A stretch of DNA of 64,000 bases. Origin: Rhodothermales bacterium (lineage in GTDB: Bacteria > Bacteroidota > Rhodothermia > Rhodothermales > VXPQ01). The notes below the pieces were generated by a model, which worked only from the letters and a program-made list of their open reading frames with translations, was not told where the DNA came from and ran no database searches. Within the stretch, counting starts at the first letter, position 1. Each line of letters starts with the position of its first letter. The DNA is taken from positions 1,374,759 to 1,438,758 of the forward strand of contig OX638295.1 of assembly GCA_951812345.1 (NCBI GenBank), written 5' to 3'. Positions 6,753 through 63,558 of this stretch are shown one piece after another. A program made the translations under genes and the position numbers.

Positions 6753-7436
6753 TTACGGTCCTGCATGTTCTTGAAGTAACGCGCTGATCTGATCGTTGCC
6801 GTAGTGCTCCGCCAACCCCCGGGGCGTATTTCCCTGCGGCGTGGGCCCTGTCCCGGCCCTGACATGAACCTCTGCCCCGGCATCGAGCAGGTATCGGACC
6901 AGTTCCAGGCTACCGCTATAGGCTGCCCAGTGTAGCACGGTCCAGCCGTGGTTGGTGCTTCTCTGGTTGACCTCGGCTCCGGCTTCGATCAGGAGATGAC
7001 CCATCTCGGCCTGTCCGGCCATTGCAGCGCGAAGCAGTGGCGTCCAACCGTCGATGCCCTTCGCGTGCGCATCCGCTCCGCTTGCCAGAAGCAGCCTCGC
7101 CATCTCCACCTGCCCCATTTTCGCTGCCCGGTGCAGCGGCGTCCAGCTGGCCGCGCCATGGGCATCTACTTCGGCGCCTGCCGCAAGGAGCTGCCGGGCG
7201 ATCGCTACGTGCCCCGCCACCGCCGCGCGATGCAGGGGGGTCCAATCGCCCATACGAGCATTCACATCGGCGCCCTGTTCGATGAGTGTGGATACCGTCT
7301 TGAGGTCTCCCGCCTCCACGGCGCGATGCAGCGGTTCGTCAGGGCGATCCTGGATAGTTAGGGCCGCCAAAAGCATGCAGGTTACCAGCATCGCGGCGAC
7401 GAATCGTACTTCCCTGATCCTTTGCGTCTTTTCCAT
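6753..7436 (-). CDS. Exported ankyrin-repeat protein
   Basis: 227 residues with an N-terminal signal or membrane anchor (about residues 10-28, VAAMLVTCMLLAALTI) followed by about five to six ankyrin repeats (for example GDWTPLHRAAVAGHVAIARQ, SWTPLHRAAKMGQVEMARLL). Ankyrin repeats bind proteins; no catalytic domain is present. The ATG is 3 bp from the TAA of the broken sulfatase frame at 7440-7442, and the intact sulfatase follows after 15 bp, so it is an integral part of the sulfatase operon. A role as a periplasmic partner or inhibitor of the sulfatases is a guess from position only. Confidence 0.88.
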   Translation of the reverse strand: MEKTQRIREVRFVAAMLVTCMLLAALTIQDRPDEPLHRAVEAGDLKTVSTLIEQGADVNARMGDWTPLHRAAVAGHVAIARQLLAAGAEVDAHGAASWTPLHRAAKMGQVEMARLLLASGADAHAKGIDGWTPLLRAAMAGQAEMGHLLIEAGAEVNQRSTNHGWTVLHWAAYSGSLELVRYLLDAGAEVHVRAGTGPTPQGNTPRGLAEHYGNDQISALLQEHAGP

Positions 7437-7439
7437 AGG

Positions 7440-7779
7440 TTACTCGAATATCCGATCAACGTGCTCCTCCTGTTGAGAAGGATTCTCGGAGCGGGGGATA
7501 AGAGGCGCGGGATGCTCCACTCGCCCGAGGGGACGGATGTTCTCGCCCTGGATACCGGCGACCTTCCCGAGCCAATTGGTCGAGGTGCGGCGTCCGATTC
7601 AGTGTAGAGCCGTAGCAGCCTATATCTCCATAGCCGAGATCATCGGCGTTGATCAGGATGATATTGGGACGCTCAACTGTTCTGCCAGTGCATGACAGCC
7701 CTTGCGACAGCACGAAGGCAGTTGTGCCGCTACCTGTTAGCTGTAAGAACGTTCTCCGCTCCATCGTGGCGATTCGCAA
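7440..7779 (-). pseudogene. Sulfatase pseudogene with internal deletion
   Basis: The first ~70 codons are a normal exported sulfatase start: Tat-like [12 protein letters not shown], lipobox LSC, then [20 protein letters not shown] and [11 protein letters not shown]. The frame then jumps to unrelated residues and stops at 7456. In a neighbouring frame the remaining DNA encodes a sensible acidic tail ([16 protein letters not shown] then EEHVDRIFE) that stops at 7440-7442, 3 bp before the ankyrin start. The simplest reading is a deletion of the central ~400 codons, including the CxPSR site, with a frame change. No active sulfatase can be made. The start could be TTG 7779 or ATG 7764. Confidence 0.85.
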
Positions 7780-7785
7780 AGGAGG

Positions 7786-7801
7786 ATGTTATCGATAACA
7801 T
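7786..7801. promoter_or_regulatory. Candidate LacI operator (palindrome ATGTTATCGATAACAT)
   Basis: Perfect 16-bp palindrome with the central CG typical of LacI-family operators, just upstream of the first (broken) sulfatase gene. It shares ATGTTA-N4-TAACAT with 1241-1256. I saw no other copy in the window. It would place the sulfatase-ankyrin-maturase operon under the same regulator as the isomerase and aldolase. Confidence 0.65.
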
Positions 7802-7836
7802 TTACGAAGAAACTGACATGATGTCAAGCCCGGGCT

Positions 7837-8694
7837 TCACCTCGACTTCCTGATCTTGCCGATCCCTGTGAACGGGATGATGCGCGGAGTGCTCGCCTGA
7901 TAGTCCGCGTAGGACGGGTATTTGGAAAGCGAGATGGACTCGGCAAGCCGTGAGGAGCCGAAAAAAATCATGGTCAGCGCAATGAACCCCGGCATGGTCC
8001 AGGTAACAAGTTGCCCCGAGGCCGCAATCGCGAACCAGTAGAAACTCCACCACATGCCGAGCTCGCAGAAATAGCTCGGATGCCGGCAATAGGCGAACAG
8101 GCCCGAGGTCATGAAGCCCTGCTCGATTGGTTCGCCGGCCGCGATTTTGCGCTTCTTCTCCTGCTGAAAGCGCCACATCTGTTCATCGCCCGCGATTTCT
8201 CCGATCCAGAGCGTGAAAAACACCAGCGCCGTCACGACATCGATCCAGGTCAGCGCCACATCCTGATATACCCACGCAATATGTATGGGCGCCGTGAACA
8301 GCCAGACGATGAGCATCTGTCCGGGCGCGATGAACGTCAGGTTCAGCAACTGAAACCGGGCGGGGCCTATGCGCTTGCGGATTTCCAGCCACCGGTAATC
8401 TTCCCCGCCTTTGGCGAATCCTCCCTTGCGGGCGTAGTTGAAGGTGAGTCGCGCGCCCCACAGGCAAACGAGCAACGTCATCAGATTCACCCTGGCGGAT
8501 TCAAAATCCAGGGATGCGGCGACGATCAGACAGTAGATCGGCGGACAAATCGTCCAGAGACGGTCGACCCAGGAATATTCGCGCGTGATCACCGACAGGA
8601 GGTAGGCGGTAATCGCGAGGATAATGCACAGGTCCAGCGCCGTGCCGTAAGGCGTTCCGGTCAACGGATGGGGTATGAAGTTGAGATCAGGCAT
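7837..8694 (-). CDS. DUF1295 membrane protein (steroid 5-alpha-reductase-like)
   Basis: 285 residues with about six to seven membrane segments. It carries the DUF1295 signature: RKGGFAKGGEDYRW in the middle and the C-terminal GLFAYCRHPSYFCELGMWWSF, with the RHPSY motif shared by the isoprenylcysteine methyltransferase/steroid reductase superfamily. The substrate is unknown; members are thought to reduce or modify lipids in the membrane with NAD(P)H or SAM. It is divergent from an ICMT-like gene at 8912 of the same superfamily, with a palindromic repeat between them. Confidence 0.88.
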   Translation of the reverse strand: MPDLNFIPHPLTGTPYGTALDLCIILAITAYLLSVITREYSWVDRLWTICPPIYCLIVAASLDFESARVNLMTLLVCLWGARLTFNYARKGGFAKGGEDYRWLEIRKRIGPARFQLLNLTFIAPGQMLIVWLFTAPIHIAWVYQDVALTWIDVVTALVFFTLWIGEIAGDEQMWRFQQEKKRKIAAGEPIEQGFMTSGLFAYCRHPSYFCELGMWWSFYWFAIAASGQLVTWTMPGFIALTMIFFGSSRLAESISLSKYPSYADYQASTPRIIPFTGIGKIRKSR

Positions 8695-8803
8695 AAGGCG
8701 AGGAGACGGGCTCCCGGACGAGGCGATCGGTCGGGGCGAGACCGGCGCCAGGGGAACAATGCGGATTATCGTCTTGTGAAAATTCAGGAAGTAATACCCA
8801 ATA

Positions 8804-8867
8804 GGATACTCTGATTAAATCCGCAAAGATTCAGAGGCTGCGAGGGGTGGTTTTGGGCAGAGTATCC
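8804..8867 (+). repeat. Palindromic dispersed repeat, copy A (64 bp)
   Basis: Begins GGATACTCTGATTAAATCCG and ends GGGCAGAGTATCC, so the ends are inverted repeats; the inner part reads GCAAAGATTCAGAGGCTGCG then AGGGGTGGTTTTG. It matches the copy at 55204-55266 (other orientation) over its full length and the half copy at 50589. It sits between two divergent genes. It is a MITE-like or REP-like element without coding capacity. Confidence 0.85.
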
Positions 8868-8911
8868 CTAAGGTCCTGTTCTCCGCAGGCATGCGGAGCA
8901 AGGGAACCTGC

Positions 8912-9415
8912 ATGAATCTGCAACTCGTCAAGGCCATCATCATTCTGCCCGGGACGGCTCTTGTCTTCATTCCGGGGGCCATACTATGGCTTTCGGCCGG
9001 CTCGTCAGGGGCTATGGCGCTGGCTGGGCCTGAATATCTCAGGTTCTGGATCGGCGCTTTACTGGGAGTCACCGGCCTCTTTTTCGCCGCCTGGACGGTC
9101 AGGTTGTTTGTGAAGGTGGGCAAGGGTACGCCTGCGCCGTGGGCGCCGCCGAAGAAACTGGTTATTCGCGGCCCTTACCGCCACGTCCGAAACCCCATGC
9201 TCACGAGCGTAAATGTCATGCTCGTTGCCGAGTCGCTGCTGCTCGGCTCGTGGTATCTGGCCGGCTGGCTGCTTTTCTTTTTTCTCCTCAACACGATCTT
9301 TTTCGTGTTTTTTGAAGAGCCGGGCCTCGAACGGCGCTTCGGGGAAGACTATCGGCGCTACAAAGCGAATGTGCCGCGCTGGATACCCCGCCGCAGGCCG
9401 TGGGACGGGTCATGA
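8912..9415 (+). CDS. Isoprenylcysteine carboxyl methyltransferase-family membrane protein
   Basis: 167 residues from ATG 8912, with an AAGGGA ribosome site upstream; an upstream ATG at 8891 lies in a small inverted repeat and is less likely. Four membrane segments. The family motif is GPYRHVRNPM (about residues 86-95), followed by FEEPGLERRFGEDYRRYKANVPRW, the conserved E and RY elements of SAM-dependent ICMT/PEMT-like enzymes. It likely methylates a small lipid or an acid group, substrate unknown. The stop overlaps the next ATG by a few bases, so this starts an operon that runs to about 11535. Confidence 0.87.
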   Translation: MNLQLVKAIIILPGTALVFIPGAILWLSAGSSGAMALAGPEYLRFWIGALLGVTGLFFAAWTVRLFVKVGKGTPAPWAPPKKLVIRGPYRHVRNPMLTSVNVMLVAESLLLGSWYLAGWLLFFFLLNTIFFVFFEEPGLERRFGEDYRRYKANVPRWIPRRRPWDGS

Positions 9416-9837
9416 TGGAAAGAGACCACGCGAAAGGCATAGGGGGTTGGCTGCTGGTCTACGTCATCGGCTCGATTCCGGTCATGCTGTTCTATTCGGT
9501 GGGCCTGGCAGGGTGGTTCTTCGACTATCCCGTCCTGCTTATGGCCGTGATCTTCCTGGCGCTTGCAAGTCCGCTGTTGCTCATTCCACGGAAGTCTCCG
9601 AGGGCGCCGAAGTGGAATATCGCTGCATTGTGGACTGCATCCATCCTGATTACCCTGCGTATCGTATACGGGGTGTTGTTTCAGAGCATGATAGAGGGCA
9701 GGCCGCGAGCGAGTAGCGAGGAACTGCTCGCCGCCCTGCCGATTCTTTCGGGAATCGTTATTTTCTCGCTGGGATGGGCGATCGTCTGGACGAAATACTT
9801 CAAGAACTCGATGCGCGTCAGAAACACGTTCTCGTAA
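9412..9837 (+). CDS. DUF2569-like small membrane protein
   Basis: About 141 residues with four hydrophobic segments and the opening GIGGWLLVYVIGSIPVMLF, resembling DUF2569 proteins (GGWL start, four helices). The ATG at 9412 overlaps the stop of the methyltransferase gene (ATGATGG), which suggests translational coupling. There are no catalytic residues to name, and the role is unknown. Confidence 0.65.
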   Translation: MMERDHAKGIGGWLLVYVIGSIPVMLFYSVGLAGWFFDYPVLLMAVIFLALASPLLLIPRKSPRAPKWNIAALWTASILITLRIVYGVLFQSMIEGRPRASSEELLAALPILSGIVIFSLGWAIVWTKYFKNSMRVRNTFS

Positions 9838-33667: not shown

Positions 33668-35025
33668 ATGAATACTAACGACGCCAGCGGGCACGCGGGC
33701 CTCCGTTATCAGGCCGACGAAAAGCCCCCGGCGACCCTTTCTCTCGGTCTCGGCTTGCAGCTCGCTGCGCTCAGTATAGCCATCTTCATACTGATCCCGA
33801 CCGTCGTGATGCGCAGAGCAGGGGCGAGCGAGGCCTATCTGTTATGGCCGTGTTCGCCACCGTCGCGGTCGTGGGGATATCCACCATACTGCAAGCGCTT
33901 CGCATGGGCCGGATCGGCGCGGGTTTCGTGCTTGTGATGGGGCCGTCCGAAGCCTTCATCGCGGTCTGTATCATGGCGATCGTCGAAGGCGGACCGGCGC
34001 TGCTCGCCACCCTGATTGTCGCCTCGTCCCTCGTTCCCTTTGCGCTTGCCAAGCGGCTTTCATGGTTTCAGCGGTTCCTGACCCCGGCTATCCTGGGAAC
34101 GGTAATTATGCTGATACCGATTACCATATTGCCGGCCCTCTTCAATATGCTATCCGTGCCCGGGAGTCCGGCGCCGGCCGCTCCCCTGAGCGCCCTTGTA
34201 ACGCTACTTATCGTCAGCGGCATCGTGCTGAAAGCGAAGGGGATACTGCGCTTCTGGTCGCCGGCTCGGTGCTTGGCGGCTTTTTCGGGCTATACGATGT
34301 CGATCGCATCGCTGCGGCTTCGTGGATTGGCCTGCCGGGGAACGCATGGCCGGGCCTCGATCTCAATTTCGGGCCGGCTTTCTGGGCGCTTCTTCCCGGA
34401 TTCCTCTTCGTTGCCGTAATCAGTTCCATCCGAACGATCAGCAGCGCCGTCGCCATCCAGCGCGTATCGTGGCGCCGGAGCCGGGCATCGGATTTCCGAG
34501 CGGTGGAAGGCGCGGTAACCGTGGACGGCATAAGCAACCTGATCGCCGGTTTTGCGGGAACAATGCCTAACACGTCCAACACGCTCGGCGTATCGATGGC
34601 CGAAATCACCGGAGTCGGCGCCCGCAGCGTCGGGATCGCCACCGGGGCCGTGTTCATTGTTATGGCGTTCCTTCCGAAAGTCCTCGCCGCAGTTCTGGCG
34701 ATACCAGGCCCGGTCTTTGCGGCGTACTTTGCCGTAATGCTGGCGGCGCTCTTCGTAGTCGGCATTAAAATAGTCCTCCAGGACGGAATCGACTATCGCA
34801 AAGGTATGATTGTCGGTATCTCGTTCCTTGTCGGAGTCGCCTTCCAGAGCGATCTGGTATTTTCCGAGTACACCCTGGACTTTGCCGGCGGTCTTTTGCG
34901 GAACGGGATGAACGCCGGCGGGCTCACAGCCATCCTTCTGACGCTGTTCCTGGAGCTCTCGCGGTCTCGCCGCAGCCGGATAGAGATGGCGTTCGATATT
35001 TCCGCCCTGTCGGAGATCAGAGACT
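33668..35025 (+). pseudogene. NCS2-type (xanthine/uracil-like) permease pseudogene
   Basis: The permease is spread over three frames. Part one (from ATG 33668) reaches GASEAYLLW, then a single missing base near 33847 moves the frame to AVFATVAVVGISTILQALRM; a second break near 34255, within ILRFW / LVAGSVLGG, moves it again. Part three has the NCS2 hallmark MPNTSNTLGVSMAEITGVGA and ends about AFDISALSEIRDF at 35025. There similarity is replaced by the IS481 remnant, so the 3' end is also lost. It would have carried purines or similar nucleobases across the inner membrane. Confidence 0.82.
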
Positions 35026-35400
35026 TTCCGGCCCACCGTGCTGTGCGCCACGCCGGTTCTTCGGCTGATCTCTCGATAGGTGCACCGGGCGCGGCGCAGG
35101 GTCAGGATCGCTGCACGTTGCGCCTGCGAGGTGCGATGCGGGCAGTTGACAGGACGCGAAGAACCGTCCCGCAGACCTTCTCGTCCCTGTGCGCGATACC
35201 GGGCCAGCCACTTGTAGGCCGTGCGTACGCTGACTCCCGAAGCCTGCGCGGCTTCCTCGACGCGAAGCCCCTCGTTAACGATGCGGCAAACCAGAATCTC
35301 TCGACCTTTCGGCGTCAATCGGGCATTCTTGTGAATCTTCATTCGGCTCCCTCACTGGTTATAGGTTCACATGTCCCTGATAAATTCGGGCAGCAGGATC
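35025..35400 (-). mobile_element. IS481-family transposase remnant
   Basis: On the minus strand from ATG 35342 the first ~105 codons are a typical IS481 transposase start: MKIHKNARLTPKGREILVCR, GVSVRTAYKWLARYRAQG, DGSSRPVNCPHRTS and YREISRRTGVAHSTVGR. Beyond that the frame runs antisense through the permease and is not transposase, so the DDE domain is missing. The end sequence upstream of the ATG (GGTTCACATG region, about 35356-35400) also cuts the 3' end of the helicase gene to its right. It is dead, and probably the agent that joined two truncated genes. Its right limit is approximate. Confidence 0.8.
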
Positions 35401-38400
35401 AAACGAACAACCTGCTGAGAGGTCACATCTAGACCAGACTTTTTGCCATGCTTCCACTGCCTGCTCACATAACTCGTCACGGTCTGCGATCCATAGGATA
35501 CCGCCCCGGAAGCCGTCATGACGCATGGCTTCGACGATAGCTTGCACGGCTACACGGGTCTTGCCGGATCCGGTCGGCATACTGATCATCCCGCGCCGTT
35601 TGTCGCCATTCCCGTGTTTTTCCCGCAACAGTCCCCGAACATTCCCGGCGATGGTTCGCTGGTGCCCATGAAGCTGTGGAAGCGAGTACGGACCTTCGAT
35701 CTCTAGAAAAGGGTCGCGTTTTCTGTTTCGTTCCCCTGCCCATTCCTCAGAAAATCCGAGGGAGCGAACAAAGCGGACGGCCCGCGCCGATCTGGCCCAT
35801 TTCGACGGAGGATCAAGTCGACCCAGCGCTTGCCTGTATTGCCTGAGCGCATCCGTGTGATACGTTGCGATGGCAGCCTCCGCAATTTCGATGCCAGTCA
35901 ATACACTGACTTCATTTTCGAGTACGGCCAGGAGGGAGCGGGGAAGGCGTGTGCGTAACGCTTGTTCGCCTACTGCTGCCAGAAGGCGTTCGGCATCGGT
36001 CGAACATTGTCGTATAGCCGCACGGCGTTCCTCAATCTCCTGCGGTGTTTTGCGTTGCAGTATCGCATCGAGTTGGTGAGGGCTCAACTCGAGTCCCAGT
36101 TCGAGCGCGATTAAGCGGAGTCTGTTCTCTTCATCGCTGCTAACAATATCGGCGAGATAGATATCGGAACCGTGAATTATACATTCCTTCTCTTGATCGG
36201 CAACGAGGATTCGTTCGCAGCGTATCAGGCGGCATGTTCTTCGATGCGGCGGGAGATATTGGTTCAGGCCCGGCCAGATGTCGGTAAGCGGAACCGCGTC
36301 GTATTCCCCGAAGAATTCCGGTGTTGGCTCCGCCAACTTGAAAACCGCTTTGATCGTTTCGGCTTTAGGGTGCCTCAGCAATATGTGCAGGGCCGTCGGA
36401 TTTTCGGGATGCGATCCAAGTGCATCGGCAAGCGGAACGATGCCGTCAGGGGTTCTAACTCGCCCATGTTTACGCAGCATCCAGATTGTTGGCGCATCGA
36501 ATTTTTCTTTGGGGTAATCTCCCTTTTTGTTTTTGTGCCACATTGTCCATTTTCGATATGTGGCTTCCTCATCCAGCAGGGCGTCCGTGTACGCCGCCTT
36601 CCCTGCATCCGATAATATCTCCAAAACCTGCAGGGGGCCGATTCCTTCGCATGACTGAAAAACCAGTGAGCCGCTGCGTGTACTACTGGCTTCCTCGGGA
36701 TTCCGACCACGCCATTCCCGCTCGCAATCTTTTTCATATGACCTCATCCACGGTTCTTGTGACAGATCGCGAACATTTTCCGGTGCGTCTACCGCGCTGA
36801 GTTTTTTCAGCAACTCGCTATCGGGTTCATGAAATTCCATGTCGATAGCGACATGACGATCCCGGCTTCCATTGCCGGGTAAGATCTCGCCTGGCAGCAA
36901 CACGGAGTGTAGGAGTTTCCATTCGTTTGCCAGGGTTCGCACCAGAGTGCGTGTAGGCCAATTATTGAACTCCTTGATGACGCCAAGTGCATCGTCCGCG
37001 GCTAATTCCCGCGAGGCCCTCCAGAAATTTTCGATCGGATTATTTTTCGGCTGTCGATAGTTTTGCAGGACCTGTTGTGCAGCGAACCGGAAGCTGCTTT
37101 CCGGCGAATGTGGTTTGATTCCCAGTTCCCGCAGCGTCGCAGATGTTTCAGGGTCCGAAACCAATTCCGAGTGGACAAAACATTCCGGTTTCGTGGTATT
37201 GTCGTCAACAGGTATCTCATTGGGTAGAAAGAGGCGCTCCGGATCGGGTTTCTTCAAGATGGAGGCAGCGGTCAATACAATGAATCCCAGTTTCTCGGAG
37301 GGGGTTCGGATATCAGACAGAATACGCGCGGCAACTTGCACTGCCGCCTTTGAATTCCCGATCAAATCGGCTTCTTCCTTTCCTATACAGAGCGCCTCAA
37401 GCCACTGAGCAAGGGTGGTCCTAGGAGCACCCGGTAGCCATGTCGGGGATGGAAACAAGCGATCTATAGCGGCGAGCCTGTTGCGGGTAAGCGCTTTGTG
37501 ATGCAGCCAATTCAGTGGCCTGCCGGGGCATGCTGTCCATCGCTCGAATAGATCTGTATCAATTCGGCCATCCGGGGTCAGCTCTTTTGGCGGATACGAA
37601 AGATCCCTGCAGATACGCAAGACGCCATCCTGATCGGGGACGATTTCGCGTTCGCAAAGATGAGAGAACAGGCACTCACGGAGGAGGTCAGCTTGGTCGG
37701 AATCGCCTGACTCGTGCCGACGCGGCAAGGCATCCAGATGACATGCGGGGTCATCGTGGGTCGCGAGTTCGGGGAGCGAATCCGCAATCATCTCTGCCGC
37801 TGCTTCGATCAATTCCTTGTTATATGGGCCTGGCAACAGATTTTGCCGATCCTCGTTGGTTTTCCAGGGTGCGTTCAGGATACCGGCGACCAGGCTTGCA
37901 GTGTGTGTTGGAAAGAACGCCCAGAAATTGCCCGGTTTGTCCAATCGTTGAAGGGGGGCTGCCCACCAGATTGGTATCTCCTTACATTCGTCGCCGGGCC
38001 TGCGGTCGACTTGAGCGTTGGCCGAGAGCCGGTGCATGCGTTCGAACCGTTTCCATCGACCGGTTTCACTTCCGTCCGCGAGATGGTATTCGTCGCCAAC
38101 CTTCTCCAGTTTCATAGTGCGGTTGATGTTCGACGAGTTGTCTGTGAGCGTGAGCGTCTTCACATGCTCCACGAACAGAAGAAATTCGGTCGGGAAGCCG
38201 TGCATTTGCCGGTAGAGGTCGTCGTGGACGCCGGACTTAAGCGGTAGCCGAACAATATTTGTCGCCCAAGCCATGAACCTGCGCAGAACATTATCCTCGT
38301 CTTGATATATAGTCGGATCGACAGGTTCGGGTAGACGCAGCACTGGACAGTGTGCGGCGTTCGGGACAACTTCCTGAATACGTTTGCGAGAGCGGTCGCT

Positions 38401-38876
38401 ATCGAACCGAAAGGATCCAGAGCGGCTGAAGAACTCCGGCGCATTACTTACGCCGAGGACGGATTTGAAGCCGAGGCCGAACGTGCCGATCTGGCCGGTT
38501 GCCCGCTTGGGCGACAGACGCGAGAACATCAGTGCCTCCACACCTTCCGGGTTGATCGGTTCTCCATTATCCGCACAGTAGATATGATTTTCCGTTAGAT
38601 GGATTGCGATGCGTCCGCCGTCCTGCTCGTGAGACACCTCATCTGCTGTCTCAGTCTCTGTATCAGGAAAGAGTGCATCCGCGCTGTTCTGAATCAATTC
38701 GAACAACTGGCGATTGGCGTAACCGCCGTACACCGTGTCAGTTTCAACGCGGGCGTGTTCGGTCACAAGCTTTGGTTGTTCCCTATAACTATTCAGGTTT
38801 TTTTCGCCTCTTCGGCAATGCGGCGGCCCAGTTCTCCGTTTGGCCCGGCCCGGTCGCTCGCGGATGGATTTGTCAT
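35359..38876 (-). pseudogene. GHKL (sacsin/Hsp90-type) ATPase - SF2 helicase gene, broken at both ends
   Basis: Open from GTG 38766 for 1135 codons. The N-terminal ATPase has LFELIQNSADAL (about 21-32), CADNGEP (64-70) and GTFGLGFKSVLG (94-105), the N, G1 and G2 boxes of sacsin-like GHKL domains. After ~800 residues of unknown middle, a helicase starts: LHGHQRTIAGN, Walker A MPTGSGKT (about 1063-1070) and ADRDELCEQA; it stops before the DEAD motif because IS481 sequence supplies GHVNL and the stop. The true start is probably ATG 38876: MTNPSASDRAG to GRRIAEEAKK continues into NLNSYREQPKLVTEHARVE if one A is restored in the A7 run at 38798-38804. The family is likely anti-phage or DNA-processing. 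Non-functional as it stands. Confidence 0.8.
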
Positions 38877-38981: not shown

Positions 38982-39464
38982 TCACCGAAATAACCGCTCA
39001 TCCCACCATACGGGTTTTTCCTTGCCCGGTTCGAGGACGGGAAAGTCGTTGTGAGTTGCGTTGATGACAATGTTGCGTTCCATACGCGCCACGACACTGG
39101 GTACGATGAGTATAGCGCTGCGTCGTTCGGCGTACCAGCGATGTCCGAATACTTGAGCAGTCTCGCTATCGAGCAGTTCCCAGCCTGCCAGCGAATCGAC
39201 ATCCGCAACTTCGTACTCCACTCCTGCGGGAACGACAATATCGATCCAGTACTGATTGGCCGGGGGTATCCCGTTCCACTGGATCAGTTTTTCCAGCATT
39301 GCTGTCGAGTAGTGCTCGGAGGCGTATATCACCCGGTCTCCGGTTTCATGCCAGCGCCCCGATATTTGACTGGCGCCTTCGGCGCTATACACTGGCCAGG
39401 CGCCTTTCGGGTCGCCTATCCGATATGCTGTAAGCGGCTCTTCGAGCCGGTGTACACGGCTCAC
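38982..39464 (-). CDS. RES-domain toxin
   Basis: 160 residues. RES domains (named for conserved Arg-Glu-Ser) of type II toxins degrade NAD+ or ADP-ribosylate targets. Visible: the Arg in TAYRIGDP, GRWHETGDRVIYASEHYSTAMLEKLI with the conserved Glu, and a C-terminal SAILIVPSVVARMERNIVIN with the conserved Ser. The GTG start overlaps the antitoxin stop (GTGA), as in coupled RES-Xre operons. Confidence 0.9.
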   Translation of the reverse strand: MSRVHRLEEPLTAYRIGDPKGAWPVYSAEGASQISGRWHETGDRVIYASEHYSTAMLEKLIQWNGIPPANQYWIDIVVPAGVEYEVADVDSLAGWELLDSETAQVFGHRWYAERRSAILIVPSVVARMERNIVINATHNDFPVLEPGKEKPVWWDERLFR

Positions 39465-39928
39465 ACGACAACCCCGGCTACGGCGCGCCGCACCAGATTC
39501 AGCACGGCATGAGCTCCTGCGGAACTGGACCTCGCCATTTCGAACGGCGTGGCGCCATCAAGCAATGGATGGGGACGGTACAGGAAGCCGTCGATGCGCG
39601 TCGCATCGCCGTGGTATGCCTGGGCCAGGGCGTCAATGACGCGCCCCAGTTCATAAATGCGTTCGCTGTGTTTTCGCGGAAGGGGTTTGAGAGATTTTTT
39701 CAGTCGGCGCAGAGTGGCTTCCGGCACCACGGGACCGATGACATGCGAACGTCCAAGAAGATCGGCAAGCGCCGTGACCGAACAGGTGGGCAATCCCTCT
39801 GCAATCTGATGCGCCAGAGTGATTTCGTCGAATCTTTTCGGCTTTGGCAGGGACAGGAGTTGCGCCAGCCGTACAGATTCGCTCGGACGCTTCGCCTGAG
39901 ATCCGGCATATGTTTCGAGTATATTCAT
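39461..39928 (-). CDS. Xre/MbcA/ParS-type antitoxin (DUF2384)
   Basis: 155 residues. The N-terminal part is an Xre-like helix region (LAHQIAEGLPTCSVTALADLLG), and the C-terminal DUF2384 region (YELGRVIDALAQAYHGDATRI, then PLLDGATPFEMARSSSGAH-like residues) binds the RES toxin. It is the first gene of the toxin operon and probably represses it through the palindrome at 39944-39981. Confidence 0.9.
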   Translation of the reverse strand: MNILETYAGSQAKRPSESVRLAQLLSLPKPKRFDEITLAHQIAEGLPTCSVTALADLLGRSHVIGPVVPEATLRRLKKSLKPLPRKHSERIYELGRVIDALAQAYHGDATRIDGFLYRPHPLLDGATPFEMARSSSAGAHAVLNLVRRAVAGVVV

Positions 39929-40604: not shown

Positions 40605-40760
40605 GGTTTTTCCCGGTTCGTTTTCCCGGATTGGTGAAATAAATGTGCGTCGAAAGGCGCAGACAATAAAAACGCTTCTCGGCACAAGCGCAAGGAATGC
40701 CGTGTGAAAGATGCGGTCTATACCGATTGGAATGCGCAGGAATATGGAGCGTGCCTCTCG

Positions 40761-40883
40761 CAGCCTCCCGAAGGGCGCGTCACACCGACAACGTACCGAA
40801 CTACAGTGTTTTTTGCCGGTTTCAACGATGTAATCATGATGTCGCCTGCGCACGAAAGCGAAGCGGTTTTGATCAGAGTATCC
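40761..40883 (+). repeat. Long-form dispersed repeat, copy C (left end missing)
   Basis: CAGCCTCCCGAAGGGCGC at 40761 through GTGTTTTTTGCCGGTTTCAA and GAAAGCGAAGCGGTTTTGAT to ATCAGAGTATCC at 40872-40883. It aligns with the reverse complement of 63395-63558 over about 125 bp (shared CAGCCTCCCGAAGGGCGC, CAACGATG, GAAAG(C/T)GAAGCG and the terminal inverted repeat). The left terminal repeat is not recognisable. Confidence 0.75.
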
Positions 40884-40984
40884 TTATGTTTCCGGGTGCG
40901 TTTTTATTCCCCGGAATGCATTGCAAGCAACCCTTTTCGCCCGATTAGCCGGATACAGAGAAGACCTCGACCAGAGTATTGCCC

Positions 40985-42608: not shown

Positions 42609-43010
42609 TCAGGAACGCTCGGTTTCCCATAGACGCCGAATGCCGTACCGGTCGAATAACGTCTCGATCGAGATGAAAGCGAGGTTGTGCGCAAGCGCTT
42701 GCGCAATGAGCATTCTGTCGAACGGATCGCGATGGGGACCCGGTAGCGACCCGGCGCGTATGGCGTCTTCAACGGTGATCGGCAAATCTTCAAAGCCTTC
42801 GCCGGCGATGGCTCCGGGAATGTCGTCCGCAAGCGCCTCGGCTCCGGACAGTTTACCGATACGGCGCTTGGTGGTTATTTCCCAGGCTGACGCCGCACTG
42901 ACGAGCTTCTCGTTTGATTCGTTTCCTATGGCGCGACGAGCGGCGACCGGTAACCGGTCGTTTCCGGCCAGCCACCATATGAAGGCGTGGGTATCGAGAA
43001 GAAGACGCAA
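42609..43010 (-). CDS. PIN-domain toxin (VapC-type)
   Basis: 133 residues. PIN ribonuclease fold: first Asp in LLLDTHAFIWWLAGND, Glu in ASAWEITTKRRIGKL, and Asp in GPHRDPFDRMLIAQA, the acidic metal site of VapC toxins. It cleaves RNA, probably tRNA or rRNA, when freed from its antitoxin. It follows the antitoxin gene after 3 bp. Confidence 0.92.
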   Translation of the reverse strand: MRLLLDTHAFIWWLAGNDRLPVAARRAIGNESNEKLVSAASAWEITTKRRIGKLSGAEALADDIPGAIAGEGFEDLPITVEDAIRAGSLPGPHRDPFDRMLIAQALAHNLAFISIETLFDRYGIRRLWETERS

Positions 43011-43013
43011 CGA

Positions 43014-43262
43014 TCAACCCTCCCAAGCGGACAACTCCTCTTCCGGGAGCGGGTCGAAAAAGCTGTCGTCGAGTGCTATCCGGTCCTTCCATGAGCCGAA
43101 TTGCGGCTTCCCCTGGCGCTGAAGACGCACAAGGCGAGCGATCGGTTTGCCGTTGCGGGCAATGACGACCTCTTCGCCGTCCTCGACTTGCGCAAGCAGA
43201 CGCGACAAGTGGGTCTTCGCTTTATGAACGTTCACTACTGGCATTGTCAGGCTCTTTGGCAT
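43014..43262 (-). CDS. Phd/YefM-family antitoxin
   Basis: About 82 residues. The N-terminal VVNVHKAKTHLSRLLAQVED and EEVVIARNGKPIARLV are the Phd DNA-binding and dimerisation parts; the C-terminal region (RIALDDSFFDPLPEEELSAW) would wrap the PIN toxin. ATG 43262 is used here; ATG 43244, which starts directly at the Phd core and has an AAAGAG upstream, is equally possible. A palindrome overlaps the promoter side. Confidence 0.9.
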   Translation of the reverse strand: MPKSLTMPVVNVHKAKTHLSRLLAQVEDGEEVVIARNGKPIARLVRLQRQGKPQFGSWKDRIALDDSFFDPLPEEELSAWEG

Positions 43263-43265
43263 ATG

Positions 43266-43287
43266 ATTAGTCAAATATATGACTAAT
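43266..43287 (-). promoter_or_regulatory. Operator-like palindrome of the VapC/Phd-type operon
   Basis: ATTAGTCA - AATATA - TGACTAAT, perfect 8-bp arms, 4 bp upstream of ATG 43262. This is the usual place for antitoxin autoregulation. Confidence 0.65.
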
Positions 43288-55003: not shown

Positions 55004-55203
55004 AAAAGGTATTCCGGTGTGCGAAGAGGCAGGCGAAGCAGGTATCAGGCACCCGCTGCTTCCGGTCAGTACAAGGGGAAAATACGACGCGACAGGTCTA
55101 TGTGTGCAATCATATCCTGACAGGCAAAAAACGGATGGAAAATTGGGGTGTCATCAAAAACCGGGCCAACCGCGTTGTCTGCCAATATGCGGGTATTTTT
55201 CAA

Positions 55204-55266
55204 GGATACTCTGATCAAAACCACCCATCTCAGCCTCTGAGCTTTGTGGACTTAATCAGAGTATCC
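55204..55266 (-). repeat. Dispersed repeat, copy F (63 bp, complete short form)
   Basis: Read on the minus strand: GGATACTCTGATTAAGTCCA, CAAAGCTCAGAGGCTGAG, ATGGGTGGTTTTGATCAGAG, TATCC. The tips GGATACTCTGAT and ATCAGAGTATCC are perfect inverted repeats, so it can form a hairpin. It is the reverse-orientation partner of copy A. It lies between the divergent lon and CBS genes. Confidence 0.88.
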
Positions 55267-63394: not shown

Positions 63395-63558
63395 GGATGC
63401 TCTGATCAAGTCCACTTCGATCAGCGCTTCACTTTCACGCGTAAAGGACGATATGCTTGCATCGTTGAGATCAGCGAAAAACACGGCGGATTCGGGTTGT
63501 CTCGGCCATGAAGCGCCCTTCGGGAGGCTGAATCTTTGCGGACTTAATCAGAGCATCC
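63395..63558 (-). repeat. Dispersed repeat, copy G2 (164 bp, complete long form)
   Basis: Both tips are present: GGATGCTCTGATCAAGTCCA at the left and, on the other strand, GGATGCTCTGATTAAGTCCG at the right (19 of 21 bases equal). The inside aligns with copy C. It ends 24 bp before the sucC ATG, so the sucC promoter region abuts or includes the element. Confidence 0.85.

Follow-up and report, generated by a model that had tools for sequence, protein, structure and literature searches.

Introduction

DISARM defence systems are built from DrmA, DrmB, DrmC and a methylase, with classes that contain DrmD or DrmE, and a survey of the YprA family notes that uncharacterised DISARM-like classes exist, without mention of GHKL or sacsin proteins (PMC12458937). 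MORC/Z1-type systems have been described by Iyer and colleagues (PMC2292703). Besides these, bacterial defence often involves sacsin-type ATPases, those of Tiamat and its relatives among them, for which no mechanism is known. Among toxin-antitoxin systems, the BrnT-BrnA pair combines an RNase toxin with an antitoxin that is reported to carry a C-terminal ribbon-helix-helix domain and to control its own operon (PMC11980606); given the position of that domain, the N-terminal part of BrnA is the likely toxin contact. Toxin-antitoxin-chaperone (TAC) modules are also known, of which HigBAC leads to abortive infection and some respond to a phage tail protein (PMC11980606). Finally, BrnT-like genes occur upstream of CoCoNuT defence operons (PMC11090510).

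The gene studied here lies in a 64,000-nucleotide stretch of DNA from a Rhodothermales bacterium (the window), where a first-pass annotation had seen the remnant of a gene for a GHKL ATPase joined to an SF2 helicase. The decay of this copy and the domain layout and gene contexts of its intact relatives are described. These contexts point to a kind of infection sensor that has not been described before: we consider it probable, at roughly 60%, that the family comprises DNA-sensing ATPase-translocases that relay infection to interchangeable effectors (DrmAB, a nuclease, or BrnT), the defensive role being deduced from gene context. The rare GHKL-helicase fusion would thereby gain a testable role.

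Materials and Methods

Relatives were sought in 84,980 species genomes with patterns derived from the ATPase domain, and the best 80 of 219 confirmed relatives were kept. brnT genes beyond the initial neighbour calls were recovered by tblastn and a profile. The tree was made with a quick method and carries SH-aLRT support only. The protein was modelled with AlphaFold2 (1111 residues, 51-row alignment, mean pLDDT 86). Literature was searched among open-access papers, subscription papers being outside its scope.

Results

The window copy is a broken gene

The ORF list of the window contains a minus-strand ORF of 1135 aa at 35359-38766. The original start is the ATG at 38876, common to a syntenic Rhodothermales contig (L064) with which the window gene shares 84% amino acid and 89% nucleotide identity; the long ORF begins only at the GTG at 38766, because a single-base difference from L064 near 38797 creates a TGA at 38795-38793. 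The interval given by the first-pass annotation, 35359-38876, was correct at its ATG end and too long at the other, where its first 73 bases (35359-35431) belong to an IS481-like element, other copies of which are found in the same genome at 97-99%, and the native gene runs from 35432 (Table 1). This element cuts the helicase after motif Ia, so that motifs I and Ia are all that is retained and motifs II-VI of intact relatives are missing; the remaining helicase was probably removed by an IS-mediated deletion or rearrangement. With its helicase interrupted and its frame broken, the window copy is dead, in agreement with its earlier description as a remnant. The dN/dS value of 0.36 against L064, determined from 259 N-terminal codons, indicates that purifying selection acted on the gene before it decayed. 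G372, a genome of the same genus, has the permease gene and the genes on the other flank of the window gene on separate contigs, in line with a deletion or rearrangement through the IS.

Table 1. Coordinates of features at the GHKL-helicase locus, in window positions.
Feature	Position	Strand	Remarks
IS481-like remnant, 408 bp	35024..35431	-	Interrupts the GHKL-helicase gene; adjacent to the permease gene
Broken GHKL(sacsin-type)-centre-SF2 helicase gene, native part	35432..38876	-	3' end missing; domain models and homologue alignment
RadD-like SF2 helicase start	35432..35674	-	Residues ~1030-1111, motifs I and Ia
Central region	35764..37671	-	Residues 365-1000; predicted structure, pLDDT 90.6
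GHKL ATPase and transducer (S5-like) module	37765..38763	-	Residues 1-333 of the 1111-aa query; structure comparison
Frame break close to the N-terminus, compared with L064	38793..38797	-	TGA in the frame of ATG 38876
RES-domain toxin gene	38982..39464	-	Directly upstream of the GHKL-helicase gene; Pfam/NCBIfam-type model matches
Xre/MbcA/ParS-type antitoxin gene	39461..39928	-	Overlaps the RES gene; domain-model matches

Surroundings of the window copy

Toxin-antitoxin genes and IS debris do adjoin the gene, as had been noted before, in the form of the RES-Xre pair and the IS481 remnant; the site itself, however, is not a defence island but a small variable spot that holds two toxin-antitoxin pairs and is set among housekeeping genes. 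Both the RES and the Xre gene are remnants in L064 and no such pair was found beside relatives in the neighbour scans, which leaves a functional link between the family and this pair unsupported; chance proximity within a variable spot is the best explanation for the pair. The second pair, at 42609-43274 (minus strand), consists by sequence appearance of a PIN-domain-like toxin ORF and a Phd-type antitoxin ORF, and part of it adjoins a shifted RES-Xre remnant in genome G301 (L141). On the other side, a xanthine/uracil-type permease gene (33668-35031, plus strand) is disrupted over several frames, and its 3' end runs into the IS remnant; G372 has this gene twice, in tandem. Positions 40748-40886 hold a dispersed repeat of ~140 bp, without a match in an Rfam search, that recurs in dozens of copies per genome at ~71-86% identity on both strands in six genomes of the genus, with partial copies near 63425-63530 and 55202-55222 of the window.

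Searches for possible partners gave no DrmA anywhere in the window genome, no brnT linked to the window gene and no antitoxin-like peptide in it. No cytosine methylase gene adjoins the gene, MORC, Z1 and DUF4420 genes are absent at the locus, and DISARM core genes do not appear in its gene list.

Domain organization of the protein

The layout proposed previously, a sacsin/Hsp90-type ATPase followed by an SF2 helicase, was corroborated by domain models and by the full-length homologues. In the 1135-aa ORF, Pfam SACS matches residues 18-119 (E 3.6e-4) and ResIII (E 2.4e-10) and DEAD match residues ~1048-1119, while the NCBIfam sacsin N-terminal ATP-binding-like domain reaches 57.5 bits (cut-off 50). 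The MORC-type model HATPase_c_3 reaches at best E 0.17, in L037; the sacsin-type models match instead. All sequences compared (51 of 51) agree at E22, N26, D29, G93, G96, G98 and K100, which are residues of the catalytic type, and at G67. In the AlphaFold2 model the ATPase module resembles sacsin SR1 (Z 15.2, rmsd 3.1, 181 aligned), tied at Z ~14-15 with the ATPase modules of SMCHD1, Hsp90/TRAP1, topoisomerase VI-B and GyrB; the top matches in a viral structure library are ATPases of the Hsp90/topoisomerase/RIIA type.

Models of the Tiamat protein TmtA (PADLOC) align with ~390 residues at the N-terminus (best E 3.5e-48, PDLC03964, residues 1-391). These alignments stop at model position ~414-578, and similarity over the full length of the ~1,300-1,780-residue protein was looked for and not found; L036, which is closer to TmtA, aligns at 1365 of 1655 positions.

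The central ~640 residues gave a confident fold when modelled alone and are conserved along their full length in ~60 full-length homologues, a sequence pattern that marks the centre as real protein. The remark that this part matches nothing nameable held up: the centre alone had no match among PDB sequences at E up to 10, and as one 636-residue piece it yielded no convincing fold match (best values: Foldseek, E 0.5; VIA, Z 4.5 for 71 residues), a result that, for a single piece of this size, is no proof of a new fold. In intact relatives a complete helicase with motifs I-VI follows, of which the nearest solved relative is RadD (E 7.7e-38).

Relatives and distribution

Among the best 80 of the 219 relatives, 64 loci encode a long single-frame protein of >1,300 aa, and nearly all full-length relatives in this set are fused GHKL-helicases. 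Intact homologues measure ~1,480-1,650 aa and stem from many phyla, with an identity to the window protein of 41-59% in its own clade and of 28-35% in Actinobacteria. The layout had been called rare; it is not unique, given 219 confirmed relatives, and few genomes carry it (3 of 395 other Actinomycetota genomes), while the window's own phylum has no other full-length member in 394 genomes. The homologues in L054, L055, L056, L059, L067, L087 and L088 are each spread across at least two frames, which makes decay or sequencing errors a frequent occurrence in the family.

In the tree, the window protein falls within a clade of mainly solo genes from Chloroflexota, Acidobacteriota, Pseudomonadota and others, and the other large group is actinobacterial. 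The solo clade is mixed by phylum and therefore indicates horizontal transfer. Phage records gave no match and a first viral scan none; a second viral scan, run with the alignment, returned as its sole match a full-length relative with 35% identity on a 36.7-kb contig of a viral collection (L180), and the gene may thus travel on a mobile element.

Solo-clade neighbours are mostly housekeeping genes, and tRNA synthetases, MsrB and transporters flank many members. Some other neighbours were encountered. In L052 a HepT-like gene, preceded by a small gene that is MntA-like by appearance, ends 49 bp upstream of the GHKL-helicase gene and represents another RNase-toxin-type neighbour, unfused; in L086 a gene for a GmrSD-N and Schlafen AlbA_2 protein (7346-9700) is located 159 bp upstream of a solo GHKL-helicase gene.

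DISARM-like and MORC/Z1 operons

Actinobacterial homologues reside in tight operons with a cytosine methylase gene and with DrmA in at least 38 and DrmB in at least 33 loci (E 4e-237 and 2e-81, respectively, in representatives). Across 45 operon loci, 38 DrmA, 33 DrmB, 37 Dcm (cytosine methylase) and 18+10 UvrD or NERD-UvrD genes were counted, numbers that are lower bounds as gene calling in the fetched loci was heuristic. The usual order is cytosine methylase, GHKL-helicase, UvrD-like (GajB-like or NERD-UvrD) helicase, DrmA and DrmB, with gene overlaps of, for example, -4 and -10, and loci without a called UvrD gene contain gaps of 1.2-1.9 kb, space enough for one. NaeI-like and Vsr-like endonuclease genes were each assigned to 8 loci by cluster membership, and clustering of the neighbours revealed no conserved DrmC-like gene (phospholipase-D-type nuclease). 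Four loci (L079, L088, L095, L109) contain, after the DrmA/DrmB genes, another, shorter ORF (~645-722 aa), which groups with the GHKL-helicase in the clustering.

Within the actinobacterial proteins, one branch with good support has lost the helicase and is ~1,110 aa long, and the Arthrobacter forms are naturally without it. Loci of this branch contain Dcm, MORC, DUF4420 and Z1 genes, the latter three at no fewer than 7 loci. Genomes with solo members were also inspected for a DISARM partner in trans: a clear DrmA was present in 6 of 16 and none was clear in 10 of 16, the window's genome included, and such a partner is therefore not required.

BrnT linkage and antitoxin-like N-termini

In the clade of the window protein, 10 of 31 members are placed directly behind a brnT RNase-toxin gene, mostly with ATGA overlaps. 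At 13 loci the N-terminus of the GHKL-helicase reads M(K/R)xEYDFSKGERGRFxRxNAKLxLP and is BrnT-antitoxin-like; the carriers are nine of the ten brnT-linked members plus four others, one of which (L041) has a brnT remnant. The tenth brnT-linked member (L056) has a different, BrnA-type segment at its N-terminus. A profile of the 13 peptides matched the antitoxins directly behind other brnT genes in L162 (E 2e-5) and L153 (E 6e-5), with 0.85 as the best shuffled value, and these were the only two antitoxin ORFs that, beyond the GHKL genes themselves, were matched at good E-values when every ORF in the six frames of 30 brnT loci was scanned. A second profile, built from five classic BrnA-type antitoxins, of which the one tested matches Pfam BrnA_antitoxin (4e-7), detected in 80 loci only the GHKL ORF of L056 (E 8e-11). 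Since the 13-locus peptide and the L056 segment differ, two separate BrnT-antitoxin-like segments have been joined to the same putative sensor protein.

Other brnT genes in the same genomes have small antitoxins behind them. Co-occurrence of segment and brnT among the 31 solo-clade members was 10/4/0/17 (p 2e-5, kinship uncorrected), brnT being found in none of the members without an antitoxin-type segment, and the first five brnT cases force at least 3 changes on the tree. The antitoxin-like segment was observed in the solo clade alone, and the DISARM-like forms are without it.

Discussion

The role we propose for these proteins is that of a sensor. Intact members combine, in a single chain, a GHKL ATP clamp similar to those of sacsin, Hsp90 and topoisomerase VI, the transducer of this clamp, a large scaffold and a DNA translocase of the RadD-like SF2 kind. 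The helicase would detect abnormal (phage) DNA or replication intermediates, and the GHKL clamp, opened or closed by ATP, would transmit this state to a partner effector: DrmA/DrmB and a UvrD-type helicase, beside a cytosine methylase, in Actinobacteria; MORC, the DUF4420 nuclease and the Z1 helicase for the branch that has no helicase of its own; and, for the clade of the window protein, the RNase toxin BrnT. The DrmAB and MORC/Z1 links suggest that the same sensor works with other effectors. As the BrnA-like segment forms its N-terminus, the GHKL protein may stand in for the antitoxin BrnA in the last of these; the N-terminal part of BrnA would be kept and its DNA-binding domain swapped for an ATP clamp and translocase, which suggests that toxin release tracks the state of the ATPase-helicase. 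Infection could then cause the complex to be lost or rearranged, freeing BrnT and stopping growth. TAC modules and the BrnT-like genes before CoCoNuT operons serve as precedents for the two halves of this idea. It is a tentative suggestion, at slightly under even odds, that this represents a new class of toxin-antitoxin-sensor systems in which a giant GHKL ATPase-helicase acts as the antitoxin, BrnA-type segments were gained twice and BrnT is released on phage DNA, with the same chassis reused in DISARM-like and MORC/Z1 systems.

The first-pass annotation had suspected a defence system and had named in advance a setting of intact homologues among housekeeping genes as the outcome that would speak against it. 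The nearest relatives are indeed mostly found in such a setting, and defence genes do accompany the family at 38 DrmA, 7 MORC/DUF4420/Z1 and 10 brnT loci; a defensive role is thus plausible for the family on account of these operons and weak for the window site. Three observations count against the proposed sensor function: most solo members are without brnT and have housekeeping neighbours, the antitoxin-like segment was encountered only in the solo clade, and the window copy has neither brnT nor segment, nor DrmA in its genome. Devoid of the first two and of the helicase core, this copy probably does nothing. That its shortened protein is nevertheless in use, perhaps as a helicase-less GHKL regulator like the Arthrobacter forms, is hard to believe: helicase-less relatives exist, the N-terminal dN/dS is low and the ATPase residues are intact, but the frame break, the IS junction and the lack of partner genes contradict it, and the dN/dS spans the time before truncation.

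For the family as a whole, brnT coupling and the fused antitoxin segments could also signify a TAC-like addiction or stress module, in which the Hsp90/sacsin-like GHKL fold is a chaperone or antitoxin for BrnT that stabilises mobile DNA, phage sensing plays no part and the helicase serves DNA maintenance. Chaperone-containing TAC modules, with HigBAC and its abortive infection (PMC11980606), offer a precedent, but the conserved helicase and the DISARM-like and MORC operons, which have no linked toxin, are left unexplained, and we regard such a module as unlikely. Rather improbable is a variant of Tiamat, a one-gene defence ATPase with a helicase in place of the usual C-terminal part and with brnT and Drm neighbours as accessories. 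The TmtA matches, the spread of the solo clade over phyla and the 10 of 16 genomes of solo members without a clear DrmA would suit it, yet the match stops at window residue ~465 (model position ~533 of 1302-1782) with nothing clear beyond the ATPase module, and the antitoxin fusions are not accounted for. A RadD-like housekeeping factor for DNA repair or the chromosome, with an added ATPase, is very improbable: RadD is the nearest helicase relative and tRNA synthetases, MsrB and transporters flank many solo members, but the family is patchy and rare (3/395), its tree is at odds with species phyla, and its operons are of the defence type.

Should the sensor function with interchangeable effectors hold, the DrmA/DrmB operons would bring an undescribed component to DISARM-like immunity, the exchange of DrmAB, MORC/Z1 and BrnT partners would mean one sensor with several effectors, and the two separate antitoxin fusions would show which end of the protein contacts the effector. 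In the open-access literature the GHKL-helicase fusion, its DISARM-like operon and the BrnT-GHKL pair are all undescribed, and the DISARM-like gene set with a GHKL-helicase accordingly seems new as far as these papers go.

Compared with known systems, the actinobacterial homologues resemble DISARM in sharing operons with DrmA, DrmB and a cytosine methylase and differ from it by the added GHKL-SF2 helicase giant and UvrD or NERD-UvrD helicase, whereas the clade of the window protein is without linked Drm genes. Tiamat shares the N-terminal sacsin-type GHKL ATPase, but the centre and C-terminus of the family are unmatched and a RadD-like helicase is found there instead. Human sacsin, whose SR1 is one of the closest structural counterparts of the ATPase domain, has no helicase, and the family occurs in prokaryotic operon contexts. 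Mza and MORC-linked restriction (Gao 2020; Iyer 2008, PMC2292703) share the GHKL and SF2 theme and, with the helicase-less branch, Dcm, MORC (MzaB), DUF4420 (MzaD) and Z1 (MzaC); the loci of that branch differ by an additional sacsin-type GHKL protein, and in the main family ATPase and helicase form one chain. In RtcR-associated CoCoNuTs a BrnT-like toxin likewise directly precedes a large operon for a defence NTPase, but they are GTPase-based McrBC relatives without GHKL and are not known to have an antitoxin fusion (PMC11090510). Finally, the BrnT-BrnA arrangement, with brnT directly upstream, the toxin gene first and an antitoxin-like N-terminal segment, recurs in 10 relatives, in which a GHKL-helicase of ~1,450 residues takes the place of the ribbon-helix-helix DNA-binding half of BrnA.
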